From NCBI GenBank assembly GCA_026014745.1, contig JAOZHS010000001.1, forward strand, positions 930,001-994,000: a DNA stretch of 64,000 nucleotides, read 5' to 3'. This stretch comes from Candidatus Bathyarchaeota archaeon. Lineage in GTDB: Archaea > Thermoproteota > Bathyarchaeia > Bathyarchaeales > Bathycorpusculaceae. This document shows, one piece after another, positions 53,515 through 64,000 of this stretch (position 1 is the stretch's first letter; each line of letters opens with the position of its first letter). The notes under the pieces were generated by a model. The model searched no databases and was not told the origin of the DNA. It worked only from the letters and a program-made list of their open reading frames with translations. Made by a program: the position numbers and the translations under genes.

Positions 53515-56220
53515 ATGATTTTTTCAGGAATCTTTTCTAAAAAGAAATCAATAACTGCATCTTTTGCAATGATTATGATACTGACAATCGCCCTCACCCT
53601 TATCACGTTGCCCAACGCCATTGCCCATGACCCGCCTCAGACAATCAAAACCTACGCATACGTGACCGCTACACCCAGCCCCGTAGGGGTAGGCCAACAA
53701 GTCACTGTCGTTTTTTGGCTTAACTGGCCCCCTCCGACTGCGGCAGGCTCCACTGGAGACCGCTGGGAAGGCATGACCATACAAATAACTGACCCCGCTG
53801 GGCAAGTAGAAAATTATGGACCCTTCGTATCTGACTCCGTCGGCTCCTCATTTATGATCTACACACCCTCAACGACAGGCGAATACCAAGTCTACTTTAA
53901 CTTCCCCGGACAAGTCCTTGAACGCGCAGGCTACACTGGCTTACCTGGATCAAACAGTGACTACATAAACGACACATTTGCCCCCAGCTCAGCAAACACC
54001 ACTTTCACAGTACAAGAAAACCCAGTTCCCCTATGGACACAGCCCCCTCTACCCGTCAGCTATTGGACCCGCCCCATCGACACCATGAACACCAACTGGT
54101 ACGTGCTTGGCTCTCAGTGGCTAGGCCAAAGTGAACAAGGCTACAACTACCTCCGCTATCAAGGCGCAGGAAGAGCCCCCGACACCGCCCACGTCATGTG
54201 GACTAAACCTATCTCGTTTGGTGGCATAGTTGGCGGAACAAATCTTGGTAACCCTGACATCAACTTCTACTCTGGTACAGCTTATCAGATAAAATTCCCC
54301 AACCCTCTAATTATCTATGGACGACTCTACTACACCATTCCCTTAGCTAACAGTCCCTCAGGCGGTGGATACGCATGCGTGGATTTACGATCTGGTGAAA
54401 CCCTTTGGGAAAAAGACTTCGGTGTTACAGTGAGTTCTGTTTTTGGTCCCTCAGGAAACGTGCCCTCTTTTGGTCAACTCTATGATTTCGAATCAGTCAA
54501 CCAACACGGCGTTAACCCCAACGGCTACCTATGGATAGTTAACACAGCCATCACCGGAGTTGGCATCACCAACCCCGCTCCACAAGCAACCACCACCAAT
54601 GGCAGCTATACCAGCGCTGTCACAAGCTCAAATGCTGTAGTCTCTACTACGGGTTGGATAGCAATCGACCCATTGACTGGCGGAACATTGTTTAACGAAA
54701 CTGATGTACCTTCAGGCACAAGATTCTTTGGGCCAGCCGGCGAAATTCTCATCATGAACATTGGACGAGCCAACACCAACGCTGCCTACACATACATGTG
54801 GCAATGGAACAACACCAAGCTACCGGGAAATGATGTTGCAGGCGGAATCACCCAATGGTTACCTGGCAGAACCAACTGGAACATGAGCAAATCCTACGAC
54901 TTCAACATAACCCTCTCTCAGCCGCTACCCGCCGGACAAAACACAGCTATAATTCAGGTGCTACCCGGAGACTTGGTATTTGGCAGAAGCAGCGCTCTAC
55001 AATTCGCAGGTTCAACCGGCGGCGCATTCGGCACACCCGACCCCTTCACGCTATGGGCAGTTAACCTTAACGCGACAAGAGGCAACGTCGGTCAAGTGAT
55101 GTGGATCAAAAACTACACTGGATCAGCCAACAACACCATCCTAATTGGACCTCGTGACCAAAAAACCAACGTCTTCACCATGTACAACAAAGAACTGGTG
55201 CAATGGAGCGGTTACAGCCTATTAACTGGCGAATACCTCTGGGGACCCACTGAGCCCGAAAACGCCTTCAACTTTTACGGCGGAACCACTGGACTCACAG
55301 CGCCCTACGCAGCAGGCAACGGTACGCTATACTCAGCAGGTTACGGCGGCATAGTCTACGCCTACGACTTCGCAACAGGCAACGTGCTATTCACCTACGG
55401 TAATGACCCCAACGACCCAAACAATAACACTCGAACAGCTAACACCGCTTATGGAGGGTATCCCTATCAGGTTGCAGCCGTTGCAGACGGAAAAGTCTAC
55501 TTGATAAGTAGTGAACACTCTCTTAACGCGCCTCCCTTCTTAGGCGCTGAGACTCGATGCATAAATGCCTATACTGGCGAAGAAATCTGGAAGATGCTTG
55601 GCATGTGTAACTGGCAAGAAATCGCTGTTGCAGACGGCTACTTCGTTTACCTTAACCTCAATGATTTGCGGATTTACTGTGTGGGACCTGGACCAAGCGC
55701 TACTTCCGTTTCAGCTTCTGTCTCCACCCTCAATCTTGGTGGAAGCGTGCTGATTACGGGAACGGTCACTGACCAATCACCTAACACCGCCCTCAAAGGC
55801 ACCGCAGCCATCTCCGACGCTGACCAAGGCGTATGGATGGACTACATGGTTATGCAAAACGTCGCAAAACCCACAGACGCAACAGGCGTACCAGTCTCCT
55901 TAGACGCATTAGACCCTAACGGCAACTTCATCCACATCGGGGACGTAACCAGCGATTCAAGCGGACTCTTCAAGATACTTTGGACACCCGAGGTACCAGG
56001 AGAATACACAGTAATGGCAACTTTTGCAGGTTCTGGTGCTTATGGACCTTCATCTGCAGAAACCGCTGTCGGCGTAGTTGAAGCACAAGCTACCGTAGCT
56101 CCTACATATCCGCCCTCAACTGATACAACAATGGCCATCACTTACTCAACCATCGCAATCATAGTCGTCATCATCATCTGTGCAGTGGTTCTAGGCTTAG
56201 TTCTCAGAAAACGACCTTAA
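53515..56220 (+). CDS. PQQ-type beta-propeller surface protein (paralogue of the 9155 gene)
   Basis: 901 aa. Signal peptide (FAMIMILTIALTLITLPNAIA), N-terminal Ig-like domain (KTYAYVTATPSPVGVGQQVTVVFWL), propeller blades (YACVDLRSGETLWEKDFG, YSLLTGEYLWGPTEPE, VYAYDFATGNVLFTYGN), Ig-like domain (about 735-845), Thr/Pro linker, membrane helix and LRKRP tail. Domain order and many short blocks (for example PSFGQLYDFESVNQHGV and TAYAVDPx types) match the 849-aa protein at 9155, though they are 44 kb apart. Anchored in the cell envelope; ligand unknown. Confidence 0.85.
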   Translation: MIFSGIFSKKKSITASFAMIMILTIALTLITLPNAIAHDPPQTIKTYAYVTATPSPVGVGQQVTVVFWLNWPPPTAAGSTGDRWEGMTIQITDPAGQVENYGPFVSDSVGSSFMIYTPSTTGEYQVYFNFPGQVLERAGYTGLPGSNSDYINDTFAPSSANTTFTVQENPVPLWTQPPLPVSYWTRPIDTMNTNWYVLGSQWLGQSEQGYNYLRYQGAGRAPDTAHVMWTKPISFGGIVGGTNLGNPDINFYSGTAYQIKFPNPLIIYGRLYYTIPLANSPSGGGYACVDLRSGETLWEKDFGVTVSSVFGPSGNVPSFGQLYDFESVNQHGVNPNGYLWIVNTAITGVGITNPAPQATTTNGSYTSAVTSSNAVVSTTGWIAIDPLTGGTLFNETDVPSGTRFFGPAGEILIMNIGRANTNAAYTYMWQWNNTKLPGNDVAGGITQWLPGRTNWNMSKSYDFNITLSQPLPAGQNTAIIQVLPGDLVFGRSSALQFAGSTGGAFGTPDPFTLWAVNLNATRGNVGQVMWIKNYTGSANNTILIGPRDQKTNVFTMYNKELVQWSGYSLLTGEYLWGPTEPENAFNFYGGTTGLTAPYAAGNGTLYSAGYGGIVYAYDFATGNVLFTYGNDPNDPNNNTRTANTAYGGYPYQVAAVADGKVYLISSEHSLNAPPFLGAETRCINAYTGEEIWKMLGMCNWQEIAVADGYFVYLNLNDLRIYCVGPGPSATSVSASVSTLNLGGSVLITGTVTDQSPNTALKGTAAISDADQGVWMDYMVMQNVAKPTDATGVPVSLDALDPNGNFIHIGDVTSDSSGLFKILWTPEVPGEYTVMATFAGSGAYGPSSAETAVGVVEAQATVAPTYPPSTDTTMAITYSTIAIIVVIIICAVVLGLVLRKRP

Positions 56221-56272: not shown

Positions 56273-57106
56273 TTATGCTTTTTTGGTTGTGGCGTCCCGT
56301 ACTTCATAGCTTATGTTAGCTGGATTTTTCAGGTTGACATTTTCTATCTCTTGCGTCATGCGGTTACTCATTCTGCCGACAACAAGTACCAACACGTTAA
56401 GTCCTCTTGACGCGGCTATTGCTGCTGAGCGGCTGATACCAAACTCTATGTCTGCTTTAAGTCCTATCTTGTTAAGGACTGCTCTACCCACAGCACCCAT
56501 TACGCCAACACGGTCGGGCTTAAACTCATCATAGAACCTTTTAACCTTGGCTAAATCTACCGCTCGTGAGCCCCCTCTGCGTATGCTGGGTAGTTTTATG
56601 ATGAGTATTTTTCCTTCTTTTACGCTTAGTTTGCCCTGTAAACTTGTTAATCCTAAATCTTCCCCGGGCATCGCGTCCTCCATCGCTATGCCTTTTGCTT
56701 CTGTGCTTTCTGGAGGTACGGTGTATATGACGCCGCCTTTCATGATTAACCCAACTTCGTCTCCTGCCTTTACGGGTTGAGTGGCTAGGGCGGGTAGGGA
56801 ATGGTCTACTTTCATTTCGTTTTTGGTGGCGTTGACGTATCTTTCTAAGCCTTTTAGGTCCTCTTGTAGCGTTGCGATTGCTTTTTCTGTGAGCCGGTAG
56901 TCTACGCGTTCAGAGCTGTATTCGAGAAGGCCTTCTCTGGCTAGTTTTTTGAAGTATTTTGATACGGCTTGGATGGTGATTCCGAGGGTTTCGCTTATGT
57001 CTTTTTGTTTTACGTGGGGCTGGTTGCGCATGATTTCTAGTAGTATTTGGAATTTTGTGAATTCTCCTTTGTTTTGGAGGATGATTGTTTGTTGGCGCTT
57101 GGTCAT
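56273..57106 (-). CDS. Winged-helix regulator with C-terminal sensor domain, divergent from cbiM
   Basis: 277 aa. The N-terminal 70 residues are a winged helix (KFQILLEIMRNQPHVKQKDISETLGITIQAVSKYFKKLAREGLLEY). The C-terminal part (about 115-277) contains GDEVGLIMKGGVIYTVPP, LPSIRRGGSRAVDLAKVKRFYDEFKPDRVGVMGAVGRAVLNKIG and ISRSAAIAASRGLNVLVLVVGRMSNRM. I know it as an archaeal regulator architecture (DUF7839-like) without a described ligand. Divergent transcription from the CbiMNQ fusion, with palindromes between, makes it the likely cobalt- or corrinoid-responsive regulator of this region. Confidence 0.8.
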   Translation of the reverse strand: MTKRQQTIILQNKGEFTKFQILLEIMRNQPHVKQKDISETLGITIQAVSKYFKKLAREGLLEYSSERVDYRLTEKAIATLQEDLKGLERYVNATKNEMKVDHSLPALATQPVKAGDEVGLIMKGGVIYTVPPESTEAKGIAMEDAMPGEDLGLTSLQGKLSVKEGKILIIKLPSIRRGGSRAVDLAKVKRFYDEFKPDRVGVMGAVGRAVLNKIGLKADIEFGISRSAAIAASRGLNVLVLVVGRMSNRMTQEIENVNLKNPANISYEVRDATTKKA

Positions 57107-57121
57107 TAATTCAACCTTGAG

Positions 57122-57175
57122 TTAACTGTAGTTAAAATAAAATTTATAAGCTTGGTGGTTGGTTGACTTATCCAA
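57122..57175 (+). promoter_or_regulatory. cbiM promoter with two palindromes
   Basis: TTAACT-GT-AGTTAA (57122-57135), a TATA box TTTATAA (57143-57149) seven bases later, and TTGGTTGACTTATCCAA (57159-57175) as a second imperfect palindrome over the likely start of transcription. The chelatase promoter at 60060 has the same three elements. Confidence 0.65.
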
Positions 57176-57196
57176 TCAAGGGGAATCCAAAACAAT

Positions 57197-58990
57197 ATGC
57201 ACATTATGGAGGGGTTCCTGCCGAGTCCATGGTGGGAAATATGGTTCGCAATATCAATACCCATCATAGCATACGGCATCTATCAACTCAACAAAATCGT
57301 GAAAAAGGAACCCGACGCCAAACCCTTACTGGCATTGATGGGTGCATTTATATTCGTAATATCTGCACTCAAGTTGCCTTCAGTATTTGGAAGTAGCTCC
57401 CACCCAACAGGCTCAGGATTAGCAGCTATAATTTTTGGACCCGCCATAGCTTCAGTTCTCTCCCTGATTGCCCTAGTTTTCCAAGCCACACTGCTTGCAC
57501 ATGGGGGCTTAACCACCCTTGGCGCAAATGTCTTCTCTATGGGCATAATGGGGCCCTTTGTAGCATACCTAACTTGGATAGTATGCAAAAAAACCAGAGT
57601 GCCGACACCGGCAGCGGTCTTTCTCGCCGTATCCCTAAGTGACCTCTTCACCTACGTAACCACCTCGGCGCAACTTGCGCTTGCTTTTCCTTCCCAAGGC
57701 TTTGCAGGCGCATTTGTCAAGTTTGCAGGTATCTTCGCTGTTACCCAGATTCCATTGGCCATAGGTGAAGGTGTGTTAGCAGTTTTCGTTTTTGATTTCT
57801 TAACAAAATATAAAGGGAAAATTCTGTCAACTTTAAAAGTAATTCGTGCACCCCTTGCAGGTATCCCTGAGAAAGAATTTCGGCTAAAAAAGAAACATTA
57901 TGCCATCCTCATCACGGTGTTACTGGTTCTATTTACAACACCCTTTCTTATTGCTACAACCAACTTTGCCGGCACTGATGACGCAGCGGCTGACATTATA
58001 ACCGCAACAGGCTATCAACCATGGTTTAACCCCATTTTGAATATTCCAGAATCATATATCGAGCCGCTTCTTGGAGTACAAGCGCTCATCGGCGCATCCA
58101 TAATGGCATATATTATCATCCGGACAAAAAGAAAAGCCAGTACTCTTAAACCAATGCCTCATACGGGGCATCGGCACAGCCACAAGCATGATGAAGGTCA
58201 CGCTAACATATCCGCGCAAATCGACAGTTACGCCTATACCAATCAATTATCAAATGTTAGTCCAACAACAAAAATCTTCTTCGCTTGCTCTATGCTGATT
58301 TTAAGTGTTATATCCGGTTCACCTATTGTTGGCATCACGGTTGCAATAATCGCCACATTAATGATTATTGCAGTCGCCCAGATTCCTTGGCGATTCTATC
58401 TAGACCTGCTTCTTTATCCATTTGTCTTTGTAGCGGTTAGTTGCATAATCATCGCTCTCTTCTTTGGCGGCGGGGAACCTTTGACGCAGATTTCTTTCCC
58501 GTGGTTCAATTGGGTAATCTACAATAACGGGATAACCATGGCACTATTGACCTTCTTCCGAGTCTTGGGCGCAATATCGGCACTATTCTTTTTGGTTTTG
58601 ACCACAACCATGAATGACCTTTTCATAAGCCTAAGAAAAATCCACATCCCCAAGGTCCTCATAGAAATCAGTCTTCTCATTTACCGCTACATATTCGTCT
58701 TCATGGAGGTTTCCTCAAAAATGACAACTGCCCAAAAGCTACGGCTCGGTCAAACAGGTTATCTTAAGCGTATCCGCCAAACCGGGCTTCTCGTCGCAAA
58801 CCTTTTCATAAGAACCCTTGAGCAGGGTGAACGGACAATTGTGGCTATGAACGCTCGCGGTTACGACGGCAACATACGTTTGCTTGAAGACCAGCCTAAA
58901 CCAAACTGGGTAACAATCGCAGGCATCATTTTGTTTGACGTGATGCTCGCTTTGATTGCATTAAACATAATAAACATATGGAGTCTATAG
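57197..58990 (+). CDS. CbiM-CbiN-CbiQ fusion, cobalt ECF transporter membrane component
   Basis: 597 aa. Residues 1-215 are CbiM with the metal-binding N-terminus MHIMEGFLP (His2) and SSSHPTGSG (His69). About 230-310 is CbiN-like (NFAGTDDAAADIITATGYQPWFNPI ... EPLLGVQALIGASIMAY). A His-rich linker (HTGHRHSHKHDEGH, 322-335, six His) leads to CbiQ (about 340-597), which has ARG-containing coupling helices (TIVAMNARGYDG). The fusion would supply the whole membrane part of a Co2+ (or Ni2+) importer that works with CbiO. ATG start; the first protein of the operon. Confidence 0.92.
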   Translation: MHIMEGFLPSPWWEIWFAISIPIIAYGIYQLNKIVKKEPDAKPLLALMGAFIFVISALKLPSVFGSSSHPTGSGLAAIIFGPAIASVLSLIALVFQATLLAHGGLTTLGANVFSMGIMGPFVAYLTWIVCKKTRVPTPAAVFLAVSLSDLFTYVTTSAQLALAFPSQGFAGAFVKFAGIFAVTQIPLAIGEGVLAVFVFDFLTKYKGKILSTLKVIRAPLAGIPEKEFRLKKKHYAILITVLLVLFTTPFLIATTNFAGTDDAAADIITATGYQPWFNPILNIPESYIEPLLGVQALIGASIMAYIIIRTKRKASTLKPMPHTGHRHSHKHDEGHANISAQIDSYAYTNQLSNVSPTTKIFFACSMLILSVISGSPIVGITVAIIATLMIIAVAQIPWRFYLDLLLYPFVFVAVSCIIIALFFGGGEPLTQISFPWFNWVIYNNGITMALLTFFRVLGAISALFFLVLTTTMNDLFISLRKIHIPKVLIEISLLIYRYIFVFMEVSSKMTTAQKLRLGQTGYLKRIRQTGLLVANLFIRTLEQGERTIVAMNARGYDGNIRLLEDQPKPNWVTIAGIILFDVMLALIALNIINIWSL

Positions 58991-58992
58991 GA

Positions 58993-59853
58993 ATGTTATT
59001 TAAAATTGAAAATCTGACTCACGAATACTCCGACGGCACAATAGCCTTAGATGATGTATCTTTAAACTTTGACAAAGCGGAACGCATTGCGCTCTTGGGC
59101 ATTAACGGTTCAGGGAAAACTACTCTGCTCAACCACTTAAACGGCATCCTAAAACCCACCAGCGGCAGAATTCTCTTCAACGGCAACCCCATCCAATACG
59201 ACGCAAAATCGCTACTGCAACTCCGTAAACGTGTCGGTTTTGTTTTTCAAGACCCTAACGATCAACTGTTTGCCTCTACCGTGAAACAAGATGTTGCTTT
59301 CGGTCCGTTAAATCTGGGTTACACTCCTGAGCACGTCAAGGCGCTGATAGATGAGGCGCTTGCGACTGTCGGCATGACTGAATTCGCCGACAAACCCCCG
59401 CATTTTCTTAGTGCAGGTCAAAAGAAACGTGTTGCGTTAGCGGGAGTTCTTGCTATGCAGCCCGAAGTTATCATCATGGATGAACCAACCTCAAGCCTTG
59501 ACCCCATAGCCGCCAGCGACATCTTGCATTTGCTGCTTCATCTCAATAAAGCAAACGGAATCACATTGCTGTTAGCCACACATGATGTAGATGTGGTTCC
59601 CTTGTTTGCAAATAGGCTCGTCATTTTAGATAAAGGCAAAGTAGTCTCCGAGGGTACCCCTAAGGAGAGTTTCTCAAAAACTGAATTAATTCGAAAAGCA
59701 AAATTGCGTTCTCCACGCATAGCTCACCTCTTTGAGGTCCTTAAAAAAGAGAACAATTTGCCTGTGGGTGACGAGTTGCCGCTAACTATTAGTGAGGCAA
59801 GAAAAGAGATACTTCGTCTTATCGATGTAGCCGTTAAGGAATCTAAAAAGTAG
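58993..59853 (+). CDS. cbiO: Cobalt ECF transporter ATPase CbiO
   Basis: 286 aa ATPase of an ECF transporter. Walker A LLGINGSGKTTLLNHL, FVFQDPNDQLFASTVKQDVAFGPLNLG (the ECF-type Q-loop), signature FLSAGQKKRVALAGVLAM, Walker B VIIMDEPTSSLDP. It drives the CbiMNQ fusion. I chose the ATG at 58993 because GGAG lies nine bases upstream; the ATG at 58978 is also in frame and overlaps the previous stop by 13 bases. The signature has Ala in place of Gly (LSAGQ), as found in some ECF ATPases. Confidence 0.93.
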   Translation: MLFKIENLTHEYSDGTIALDDVSLNFDKAERIALLGINGSGKTTLLNHLNGILKPTSGRILFNGNPIQYDAKSLLQLRKRVGFVFQDPNDQLFASTVKQDVAFGPLNLGYTPEHVKALIDEALATVGMTEFADKPPHFLSAGQKKRVALAGVLAMQPEVIIMDEPTSSLDPIAASDILHLLLHLNKANGITLLLATHDVDVVPLFANRLVILDKGKVVSEGTPKESFSKTELIRKAKLRSPRIAHLFEVLKKENNLPVGDELPLTISEARKEILRLIDVAVKESKK

Positions 59854-60059
59854 CGGTCTCCTTTTGCTTACTTTTCGGGGTGATGGATGTACTCTCAGAG
59901 GTTCTGCCCCATTACTTTTTAAATTATGGATAGGTTAAGTGCTTGCGGTTTTCTGGGTTGGCTGTTTTGGCGCGCCTGTTTTAGGTTGCTTGCGCTCTTT
60001 GGATTTTGGGTTTTTTGATGTTGGTTGTATTTAGTAAACCTTGGTTGATAAACCAGCTA

Positions 60060-60110
60060 TTAACTTTTGTTAAGCCAAAGTTTATAACGCTACTTGGATA
60101 GAACATCCAA
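60060..60110 (+). promoter_or_regulatory. Chelatase promoter with palindromes matching the cbiM promoter
   Basis: TTAAC-TTTT-GTTAA (60060-60073), TATA box TTTATAA (60081-60087) with the same seven-base gap as at cbiM, and the perfect palindrome TTGGAT-AGAAC-ATCCAA (60094-60110). The rest of the 59854-60129 gap shows no gene. Confidence 0.65.
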
Positions 60111-62121: not shown

Positions 62122-62138
62122 GGCGGGAGGTGAAAAAA

Positions 62139-63233
62139 ATGAAAAAAACAACCATAATCGCAACCGTTGCCATCATCTGCATAGTGCTTATTGCCTCAGT
62201 TTATGGTGTTTACAACGCCTACTATGCGTCTCCATCCAATTCTAACCCCTCGGCAAATAGCGTGACCGTCACTGACGGCGCAGGAAACACCATGAATATT
62301 TCGCTTCCTGTGACCCGCATTGCTGCCCTTGACCAGAGCGTAGCTGAAGTCTTATGCGCCATGGGCGTCGAAGATTTAATCGTTGCTCGAACGGACAGTT
62401 GCACAATGCCGCCCTCATTGCTAAACGTTACCTCTTATGGCGAAAACGACTATGCCCCCAACGTTGAGGGACTAATCGCGGCGGACCCTGATGTAATATT
62501 TGCAAGTTCAATGTTGCCATATAACCCCACAGTATACCAGCAAATTCTAGATGCCGGTATCCCCGTTTACATCGTTGACACCACAACTCCTGAACCCGTC
62601 AACCCCTCAAACATGACTAAAGATGAACTCTACGCATTACCCACGCAGATAGATACAACATGTGGCTTAATGCAGAACTTCACCAAGATTGTTGGTCACC
62701 AAGAAAACGTCGATGCTTACGTGGCTTGGGCGCAGAACTACAACCAGATCGTTAAAGACCGCATATACAACCTAGAGCCTGACCAAAGAGCCAAAGTCTT
62801 CATGGAATTCTATTCTTACCCCTACCAAACCTTCGTAACAGCATCTATCTACCAATCAGGGGGGGTCAACATAGCTGAAAACCAATCCATCTACTCCCCC
62901 ACTCTAAACCCCGAATTTGTTGTTGAACAAAACCCCGACGTAATCATCGAAATGATCAGCAGCCCAACAAACGACTTAGCGGACTTCAAAGCAGCACTAA
63001 ACGACATAATGAGCCGAACAGCCACTAAAGGCACCAACGCAGTCAAGGAGGGTCACGTTTACATCTGTGACTTCTGCGCCAGAAACGGTGCCCGAAGCGT
63101 AGTTGGCTACGTTTATTGGGCCAAATGGATACAGCCAGACCTCTTCACCGACTTAGACCCCTCTGCCATCAATGCCGAGCTTAACCAAAAATTCTTCGGA
63201 ACTGACATAAACGGGACGTTTGCCTATCCATGA
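62139..63233 (+). CDS. BtuF/FhuD-type substrate-binding protein
   Basis: 364 aa, membrane-anchored by an N-terminal helix (TIIATVAIICIVLIASVYGVY). The binding domain is of the helical-backbone metal-receptor type: VTVTDGAGNTMNISLPVTRIAALDQSVAEVLCAMGVEDLIVART, then NVEGLIAADPDVIFAS and NPDVIIEM. Ligand may be cobalamin, a corrinoid precursor or another metal chelate. ATG at 62139 with GGAGG; the GTG at 62130 is in frame. It follows the chelatase by 17 bases and overlaps the permease by four. Confidence 0.88.
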   Translation: MKKTTIIATVAIICIVLIASVYGVYNAYYASPSNSNPSANSVTVTDGAGNTMNISLPVTRIAALDQSVAEVLCAMGVEDLIVARTDSCTMPPSLLNVTSYGENDYAPNVEGLIAADPDVIFASSMLPYNPTVYQQILDAGIPVYIVDTTTPEPVNPSNMTKDELYALPTQIDTTCGLMQNFTKIVGHQENVDAYVAWAQNYNQIVKDRIYNLEPDQRAKVFMEFYSYPYQTFVTASIYQSGGVNIAENQSIYSPTLNPEFVVEQNPDVIIEMISSPTNDLADFKAALNDIMSRTATKGTNAVKEGHVYICDFCARNGARSVVGYVYWAKWIQPDLFTDLDPSAINAELNQKFFGTDINGTFAYP

Positions 63234-64000
63234 CCATAACCACAGCCGCGGACGTTAAAGAACTCTACAATACAGGCAAAAGAAAAAAACTCATTGTCAT
63301 TTTCTCTCTTTTTGTTATTTTAATAATAACCGCCTTATTTTCAATTAGTTTAGGCGCTGCCTCCCCCAGTTTTGGTTCAGCAGTGCAGGTCATCTTCTCA
63401 AAAGCGCTTCCTTTCCTCAATATCAATCCTGGAACAGACCTTGAACAAACAATCATCTGGTCCATACGATTACCCCGAATAATTTTAGCAATAATTGCCG
63501 GGGCAGGACTAGCAGCTGCAGGCGCTACAATGCAGGGTATCCTACGCAACCCCTTGGTGTCTTCCTATATTTTGGGGATTTCTTCCGCTGCAGGTTTCGG
63601 CGCAGCATTAGCAATAGTCTTCGGATTTAGCCTTGTCGGCTTCTATGGACAATACCTTGTAATCGGTAACGCCTTCATTTTTTGTTTACTTGCCATGGTC
63701 ATAGTTTACCTTATCGCACGAGTACGCGGCATGAGCACCGAAACCGTGATCTTAGCAGGAGTCGCTGTTGGGTTCCTTTTTTCGGCGCTCCTTTCTCTTG
63801 TTCAGTATATTTCGCCCAAACAAAACGCCATACAAGCCATCACTTTTTGGCTTATGGGTGGTCTCTATAATGCGAACTGGGAAAGCATTCTTGTCTGTGC
63901 ACCTATAGTTGCGGTTGCAATAATTGTGATGATTTTCCAATCTTGGAACATCAACATCATGAGCATGGGTGAAGAAGTCGCTGTAAGCCTCGGCGTAAAC
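63230..64000 (+). CDS. BtuC/FecCD-type permease (cut by window edge)
   Basis: First 257 codons of an ABC permease. RLPRIILAIIAGAGLAAAGATMQGILRNPLVSSYILGISSAAGFGAALAI is the FecCD/BtuC signature; at least six hydrophobic helices are visible, and FWLMGGLYNANWES is also typical. Its ATG overlaps the stop of the binding protein (ATGA). With that protein and an ATPase beyond the edge it would import a corrinoid or similar metal complex. Confidence 0.92.
   Translation, partial: MTITTAADVKELYNTGKRKKLIVIFSLFVILIITALFSISLGAASPSFGSAVQVIFSKALPFLNINPGTDLEQTIIWSIRLPRIILAIIAGAGLAAAGATMQGILRNPLVSSYILGISSAAGFGAALAIVFGFSLVGFYGQYLVIGNAFIFCLLAMVIVYLIARVRGMSTETVILAGVAVGFLFSALLSLVQYISPKQNAIQAITFWLMGGLYNANWESILVCAPIVAVAIIVMIFQSWNINIMSMGEEVAVSLGVN

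Follow-up and report, generated by a model that had tools for sequence, protein, structure and literature searches.

Two promoters in a 64 kb stretch of archaeal DNA (hereafter the window) carry the same set of palindromes around their TATA boxes. One lies between the cobalt transporter gene cbiM and a divergent winged-helix gene, and the other precedes a putative cobaltochelatase operon, raising the question of whether the palindromes are operators of a shared regulon and, if so, which proteins read them. The answer favoured here, which we consider fairly probable on comparative sequence grounds, is a Bathyarchaeia cobalt/corrinoid acquisition regulon with two operators per promoter, the first (motif 1) read by the DUF7839 protein encoded by the divergent gene and the second (motif 2) by another protein. 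The elements of the two promoters and the genes that they adjoin are as follows.

56273..57106, minus strand: gene of the 277-aa regulator, a MarR-like winged helix with a C-terminal DUF7839 domain (PF25211), from profile search
57110-57116, plus strand: TTCAACC, upstream AAC half-site of motif 1, 11 bp before the core AAC
57122-57135, unstranded: motif 1 core of the regulator/cbiM promoter, TTAACTGTAGTTAA, from pattern search
57143-57149, plus strand: TTTATAA, TATA box of cbiM, 7 bp past the motif 1 core
57159-57175, unstranded: motif 2 at cbiM, TTGGTTGACTTATCCAA, 9 bp past TTTATAA
57197..58990, plus strand: cbiM-cbiN-cbiQ fusion of a cobalt energy-coupling factor transporter, 597 aa (TIGR00123, TIGR02454, CbiN domain)
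60035-60048, unstranded: TAAACCTTGGTTGA, an additional motif 1 palindrome in the chelatase promoter, exactly 25 bp upstream of the core one
60060-60073, unstranded: motif 1 core of the chelatase promoter, TTAACTTTTGTTAA, from pattern search
60081-60087, plus strand: TTTATAA, TATA box of the chelatase operon, 7 bp past the motif 1 core
60094-60110, unstranded: motif 2 at the chelatase promoter, TTGGATAGAACATCCAA, 6 bp past TTTATAA
60130..62121, plus strand: fused ChlI/ChlD-type chelatase subunit, a putative cobaltochelatase subunit and first gene of its operon (TIGR02442)

An earlier note on this DNA had described the architecture of the two promoters as identical, with a TTAAC-N4/N2-GTTAA palindrome exactly 7 bp before TTTATAA and a TTGGnT-N5-ATCCAA palindrome downstream of it. 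The 7 bp spacing and the downstream palindrome are indeed found at both promoters, and the same parts occur in the same order, but N4 separates the arms of the first palindrome at both, with no N2 version, and the layouts are better called equivalent than identical because the distance from the TATA box to the second palindrome differs (9 vs 6 bp). The TTCAACC half-site also sits immediately upstream of the regulator start codon, and the complement of TTTATAA at 57143-57149 (CTTATAAAT) may serve as a TATA box for the divergent regulator gene.

Within the window, TTAAC-N4-GTTAA and TTGG-N-T-N5-ATCCAA each had two matches, both at these promoters. Across the whole 2.7 Mb genome, TTAACN4GTTAA was found 11 times against 5 for its reversed control and TTGGNTN5ANCCAA 11 times against 2, with the remaining copies of either palindrome mostly inside reading frames. 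Single palindromes are therefore unconvincing by themselves, being only 2- to 6-fold more frequent than their controls and elsewhere mostly coding. The composite pattern TTAACN4GTTAAN7TTWATA, allowing at most one mismatch, was accordingly searched in 61 genomes with the reversed pattern as control, giving 116 matches against 13 in genomes G000-G032 and 8 against 10 in the other 28. Among the 46 exact matches, 36 had a cobalt or corrinoid gene first downstream, as would be expected of the shared regulon that had been proposed, and 4 had one on the other side only, including a site between a phosphodiesterase (PDE) gene and an alpha/beta hydrolase gene in the window's own genome; 4 were otherwise intergenic (one at a NicO permease, L105; two at secreted metallophosphoesterases, L082 and L123; one without gene assignment) and 2 coding. 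The corresponding numbers for the 70 one-mismatch matches were 31, 8, 14 and 17. Removing the coding (19), other intergenic (18) and other-side-only (12) matches from the 116 left 67 regulon promoters, whose first genes were cbiM (28), a corrinoid-binding protein (15), the chelatase (14), the PDE (8) and the regulator (2). In the window's own genome, exact matches occurred at cbiM, at the chelatase, in the PDE/alpha-beta hydrolase intergenic region (C2:554312) and once inside a reading frame, so that the search suggested in the earlier note, for the composite motif in front of other cobalt and B12 genes, did return further sites. Short palindromes are common in AT-rich promoters, and the bare whole-genome copies do fall mostly in coding sequence, but chance has a vanishingly small probability as an explanation given this gene set, the 116 matches against 13, and the shuffle test and the second reversed control (21 against 1) reported below for motif 2.

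As the search pattern fixes TTAAC, GTTAA and TTWATA in the 67 promoters, only columns outside these elements provide independent evidence on the shape of motif 1. In such free columns, TCAAC(C/T) was conserved, its AAC standing exactly 11 bp ahead of that of the core in 63 of the 67, and there was further conservation of TT after TTAAC and of ACNAA after GTTAA. On the other side, 40 of 67 have GTT again at +11, within the TATA box. Motif 1 can thus be described as a TNAAC-N4-GTTNA core flanked at 11 bp on either side by AAC/GTT half-sites, of which the inner one is merged with the TATA box; a TATA box that carries the next half-site, one helical turn away, would account for the constant 7 bp spacing. 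A further exact TNAACN4GTTNA lies 25 bp upstream of the core in 9 of 14 chelatase promoters, compared with 1 of 28 cbiM promoters.

This geometry bears on whether motif 1 represses or activates. In the proposed mechanism, motif 1 overlies the region contacted by TFB and the margin of the cbiM TATA box and, judging from the spacing, lies close to the expected start of the regulator gene, so that the DUF7839 protein would repress both cbiM and its own gene when cobalt or corrinoid is sufficient; the regulator gene is, on this evidence, probably autoregulated. It is the overlap with the TFB/TATA region and the nearness to the regulator start that suggest repression. The opposite possibility, that under scarcity of cobalt or corrinoid the DUF7839 protein, bound just ahead of the TATA box, recruits TBP/TFB, would suit the placement of motif 1 immediately upstream of the TATA box, although this position is demanded by the search pattern, and the second upstream copy at chelatase promoters is an activator-like layout. 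The overlap of the innermost half-site with the TATA box fits an activator less well, and the expected position of motif 1 near the regulator start would also be better explained by repression. Activation is accordingly regarded as rather unlikely and repression as the probable mode.

The divergent winged-helix gene had been put forward as the candidate regulator, and for motif 1 its distribution argues in favour. The 277-aa protein scored above the cut-offs of both DUF7839 (PF25211, 70.5 bits, cut-off 27, E=1.5e-19) and the MarR-type winged helix (MarR_2, 34.8 bits, cut-off 27, E 1.9e-8). It was matched in 33 of the 61 genomes, of which 32 were counted, G008 having a weak partial match only. 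A cobalt or corrinoid gene was present in the regulator flank at 40 of 43 named loci, many of which are from the same metagenome-assembled genomes (MAGs) as the G genomes; two of the three exceptions end at a contig edge and the third is a homologue of 33% identity. The regulator is still beside cbiMNQO in G195, which lies outside the window's class. Across the 61 genomes, 29 had both motif 1 and the regulator, 2 motif 1 only, 3 the regulator without a strict motif and 27 neither (Fisher 6.8e-13, computed with G054 counted as neither and ignoring relatedness). Among the 29 genomes in which no regulator was found, a close CbiM (74% identity) occurred in G054 only, 8 others had weak CbiM matches of at most 33% identity, and the remainder had none; in a scan of eight loci of such weak matches (L281-L287, L289), neither motif was present. 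The 277-aa MarR-type DUF7839 protein is thus, on comparative evidence, most likely the binder of motif 1. DUF7839 also occurs in Methanocaldococcus jannaschii, Haloferax volcanii and Methanosarcina acetivorans.

A structural model of the regulator from 25 sequences (mean predicted local distance difference test score, pLDDT, 84.9; predicted template modelling score, pTM, 0.53), which replaced a poor model from 12 sequences (mean pLDDT 68.7), comprised a MarR-like winged helix, a long helix and a C-terminal part containing both strands and helices. In fold comparison, MarR folds led over residues 1-99, and SloR and AdcR were among the weak matches of a sequence search. His31, present in 24 of the 25 sequences, is the only conserved histidine and there is no conserved cysteine, making Co2+ a less than obvious ligand; Asp/Glu metal sites may exist, and a corrinoid or other organic ligand appears at least as likely as Co2+.

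The second palindrome shows a distribution of its own. Motif 2 was called as TTGGAT-N-ATCCAA between the TATA box and the start, with at least 10 of 12 positions matching and 100 dinucleotide shuffles as control, and was found at 24 of 28 cbiM promoters (shuffle mean 0.92), 12 of 15 binding-protein promoters (0.74), 5 of 14 chelatase promoters (0.30) and neither of the 2 regulator promoters (0). At cbiM, both motifs are kept together in other genera. When TTGGATN{1,5}ATCCAA was sought with the TATA condition removed, 18 of 20 listed matches that were fetched contained exact motif 2, and among the stretches inspected the clearly non-coding ones lay at cbiM, chelatase, CobN, FecCD and cobD, nearly all others being in reading frames. 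Coupled to TTTATA across 151 genomes of the class, motif 2 had 21 matches against 1 for the control, 14 of them beside genes read from sequence as B12 or cobalt genes (cobD, cbiB/cobN, FecCD, btuF-like, cbiZ, cbiM), 3 at one orthologous locus by a purS-like gene and 4 unexplained or coding. The purS locus, in three related genomes (L301, L302, L315), has motif 2 and a TATA box between the purS-like gene and a 385-aa frame and is outside the B12 gene set. Small Cys-rich proteins, possibly metal-binding, are encoded near motif 2 at L311:2682-3025 and L312:1070-1510, one of them directly behind cobD.

The position of motif 2 at cobD indicates at what level it acts. There it lies just upstream of the TATA box, with motif 1 absent, at 15 of 30 loci; 5 others have a degenerate or absent motif 2, and upstream of the remaining 10 there is either apparent coding sequence or no site of this kind. 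The cobD copy in the window's own genome reads TTGGTTGGAGCATCCAACCAA. The own-genome copy at C2:298648 had been read as a diphthine synthase promoter, an assignment dropped on recognition that it is the divergent cobD-cbiB promoter; the gene opposite may also be a target. Paired changes in the two arms (TTGGAT/ATCCAA to CTGGAT/ATCCAG) and a variable loop of N1 or N5 might be taken to indicate an RNA hairpin at the mRNA 5' end, acting as an attenuator or stability element, rather than a protein operator. A palindrome upstream of the TATA box would be untranscribed, as would that of G015 (L147), which starts 2-3 bp after the TATA hexamer. At cobD motif 2 must therefore be a DNA and not an mRNA element, and the hairpin reading, mostly dropped for this reason, is considered very unlikely.

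Motif 2 also seems independent of DUF7839. It occurs at B12 loci of G033 and G038, genomes in which no DUF7839 was found; in G038 it lies between a btuF-like gene and a cobD-cbiB cluster, with neither a regulator match nor a close CbiM. A single protein reading both motifs, for example through different oligomers, would require no second regulator and would be in keeping with their sharing of promoters and their joint conservation at cbiM across genera, as well as with the degraded motif 2 at cobD in G008, where the regulator match is weak and partial and motif 1 absent. Set against this are the different half-sites (TNAAC vs TTGGAT), the occurrence of motif 2 alone at cobD, its presence in G033 and G038, where DUF7839 was searched for and not found, and also in G258 and G270, which lay outside that search, and the PDE promoters, which carry motif 1 alone. 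A one-protein explanation is judged improbable, and since motif 2 is found both apart from motif 1 and in genomes with no DUF7839 found, it probably has its own regulator. In the favoured two-operator scheme, motif 2 (TTGGAT-N1 or N5-ATCCAA), lying between the TATA box and the predicted start where polymerase must load, would block polymerase at the start, and the second protein would also control B12 genes such as cobD, cobN and btuF-like genes. The dual control by two palindromes flanking the TATA box envisaged in the earlier note is supported by this comparative evidence, the two sites being distinct and separately distributed.

As to the reader of motif 2, winged-helix DUF4443 proteins are candidates, constituting a lead and not a finding. 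One comes after DUF7839 in G048 and G057 (L169:3316-4041 in G048), and in G033 and G342 (L308, L318) a DUF4443 gene is divergent from btuF-like/FecCD genes, from which it is separated by motif 2 and one small frame. Because all 22 genera yielded DUF4443 proteins, presence alone says little. The single copy in the window's own genome (C2:819101, 33% identical) is near an apparent S-adenosylmethionine synthetase gene; no neighbouring B12 gene was identified, and a DUF4443 reader is weakly supported in this genus.

Several observations weigh against the two-operator regulon. In G054, a 95% complete MAG, several cobalt promoters carry both motifs, yet the genome gave no DUF7839 match, and G021 (85% complete) has a motif 1 chelatase promoter with no regulator found. 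Conversely, G034, G048 and G057 have the regulator but no strict composite match, with variants of the motif in G034 and G048. The genomes are related, so that the co-occurrence of motif 1 and regulator is not independent evidence and constitutes support rather than proof. Motif 2 was absent from all 8 PDE promoters (shuffle mean 0.09), its spacers are mostly 1 or 5 bp, two classes that a single rigid dimer would not usually accommodate, and a position immediately ahead of the TATA box can suit an activator as well as a repressor.

Beyond the transport and chelatase genes, motif 1 is associated with a set of largely uncharacterised genes. In the window's own genome, one motif 1 promoter is common to a type I PDE (PF01663, 442 aa) and the alpha/beta hydrolase (296 aa) (L005:2702-5247; C2 ~553200-555750). 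In 8 other genomes the first gene under motif 1 encodes the PDE, and a homologue of the hydrolase is within the regulator locus in L254, L270 and L293. From this placement both are candidate corrinoid-salvage enzymes. The PDE had no solved-structure relative at E<=0.001. CbiR is described as a phosphodiesterase that starts cobamide remodelling and was found partly through its position near cobamide genes (PMC7733943). In G002, the second gene behind a motif 1 promoter (L157:6648-8618) encodes a protein with a transcobalamin-like DUF4430 domain. Large, secreted-looking proteins combining laminin-G and metallophosphoesterase domains occur at L082, L123, L099 and L094, with motif 1 directly upstream of their genes at the first three and, at L094, upstream of a binding-protein gene that precedes the laminin-G/metallophosphoesterase gene. 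NicO-type Co/Ni permeases were found at L105:3604-4683, with motif 1 and a motif 2-like palindrome upstream, and at L111:4273-4908, between the regulator and a cbiM-type operon. A more far-reaching scheme, tentative and on balance doubtful, is that DUF7839 proteins are archaeal sensors of corrinoid, and not of Co2+, that shut cobalt and corrinoid uptake, that the DUF4443 winged-helix family reads motif 2 and so ties these promoters to B12 synthesis, and that the PDE, the hydrolase and the secreted metallophosphoesterases controlled by motif 1 make up a new pathway of corrinoid scavenging in which the nucleotide loop is dismantled.

The genes in the window that follow those listed above complete the two operons.

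58978..59853, plus strand: cbiO, cobalt transporter ATPase (TIGR01166, 249.3 bits, cut-off 211.8)
62130..63233, plus strand: corrinoid/siderophore-type substrate-binding protein (PF01497, E=4.9e-26)
63230..64000, plus strand: BtuC/FecCD-type permease, running off the window end, from profile search

With the cbiM-cbiN-cbiQ fusion scoring 283.8 bits against TIGR00123 (cut-off 184.15) and 168.6 against TIGR02454 (111.8), the CbiM, CbiQ and CbiO models were all above cut-off, and the genes can be assigned to a CbiMNQO transporter. The chelatase subunit scored 807.1 bits against TIGR02442 (cut-off 779.45). Downstream of the FecCD-type permease, beyond the window, are genes for an ATPase, CobN (TIGR02257, 1037.7 bits, cut-off 822.05) and CbiZ, and CobN together with the TIGR02442 subunit identifies a CobN-ChlID cobaltochelatase. 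The chelatase, binding-protein, permease, ATPase, CobN and CbiZ genes look like one operon, in which the presence of CbiZ and the uptake genes points to corrinoid salvage; for haloarchaea, a late cobaltochelatase has likewise been proposed to function in salvage (PMC8305020). Directly beyond the regulator gene, at 53515-56220, is a gene for a 901-aa surface-type protein with weak PQQ/filamin matches, and in G018 the corrinoid region L130 encodes an 868-aa protein with a PQQ_2 match. Most named relatives of the regulator locus were from Ca. Bathyarchaeota MAGs, several Ca. Bathycorpusculum among them, and the source organism belongs to the Bathyarchaeia and is related to Ca. Bathycorpusculum.

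Control of a regulon by a locally encoded winged-helix repressor is a known arrangement. The present system resembles the MarR-family and winged-helix metal or ligand repressors AdcR, ZitR and SloR in having an N-terminal winged helix followed by a long helix, a palindromic candidate operator beside or over the core promoter, and adjacent target genes. Unlike these, the 277-aa protein has a large C-terminal DUF7839 domain and no obvious metal site, and the candidate operator is fused to an archaeal TATA box. The sole listed fold match across the whole regulator model was CggR (8r3g_A; Z 11.9, 170 aligned residues, root-mean-square deviation 17.8 Å), a SorC-type regulator that senses sugar phosphates. 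This match hints that the modelled C-terminal domain may bind a small molecule, but sequence identity is 15% and the overall arrangement does not match, as reflected in the very large deviation; no SorC-type C-terminal sugar-binding domain was matched in a Pfam scan of the regulator. The same classes of target genes are controlled elsewhere by the cobalamin riboswitch and NikR, unlike which the predicted elements here are DNA palindromes and winged-helix proteins. RbkR is another archaeal vitamin regulator with an N-terminal helix-turn-helix (HTH) domain, like the present protein, although its C-terminal domain, pathway and operators are unrelated to those of the 277-aa regulator. It is described as a riboflavin kinase/regulator that is bifunctional as gene regulator and enzyme (PMC8305020).

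A literature search of partial coverage returned no paper on this regulon. As far as that search goes, what is new is the proposed role of DUF7839 in cobalt/corrinoid control, an array of half-sites that is fused to the TATA box, a second operator independent of the first, and a set of candidate enzymes for corrinoid salvage. If correct, the scheme would provide a function for an uncharacterised regulator domain, and two operators around the TATA box would allow the block of TBP/TFB and the block of polymerase to be tested apart on a single promoter. The list of genes under motif 1 would point to uncharacterised enzymes for corrinoid salvage, and the regulon as a whole would show how cobalt and B12 supply is controlled in a widespread uncultured archaeal group.

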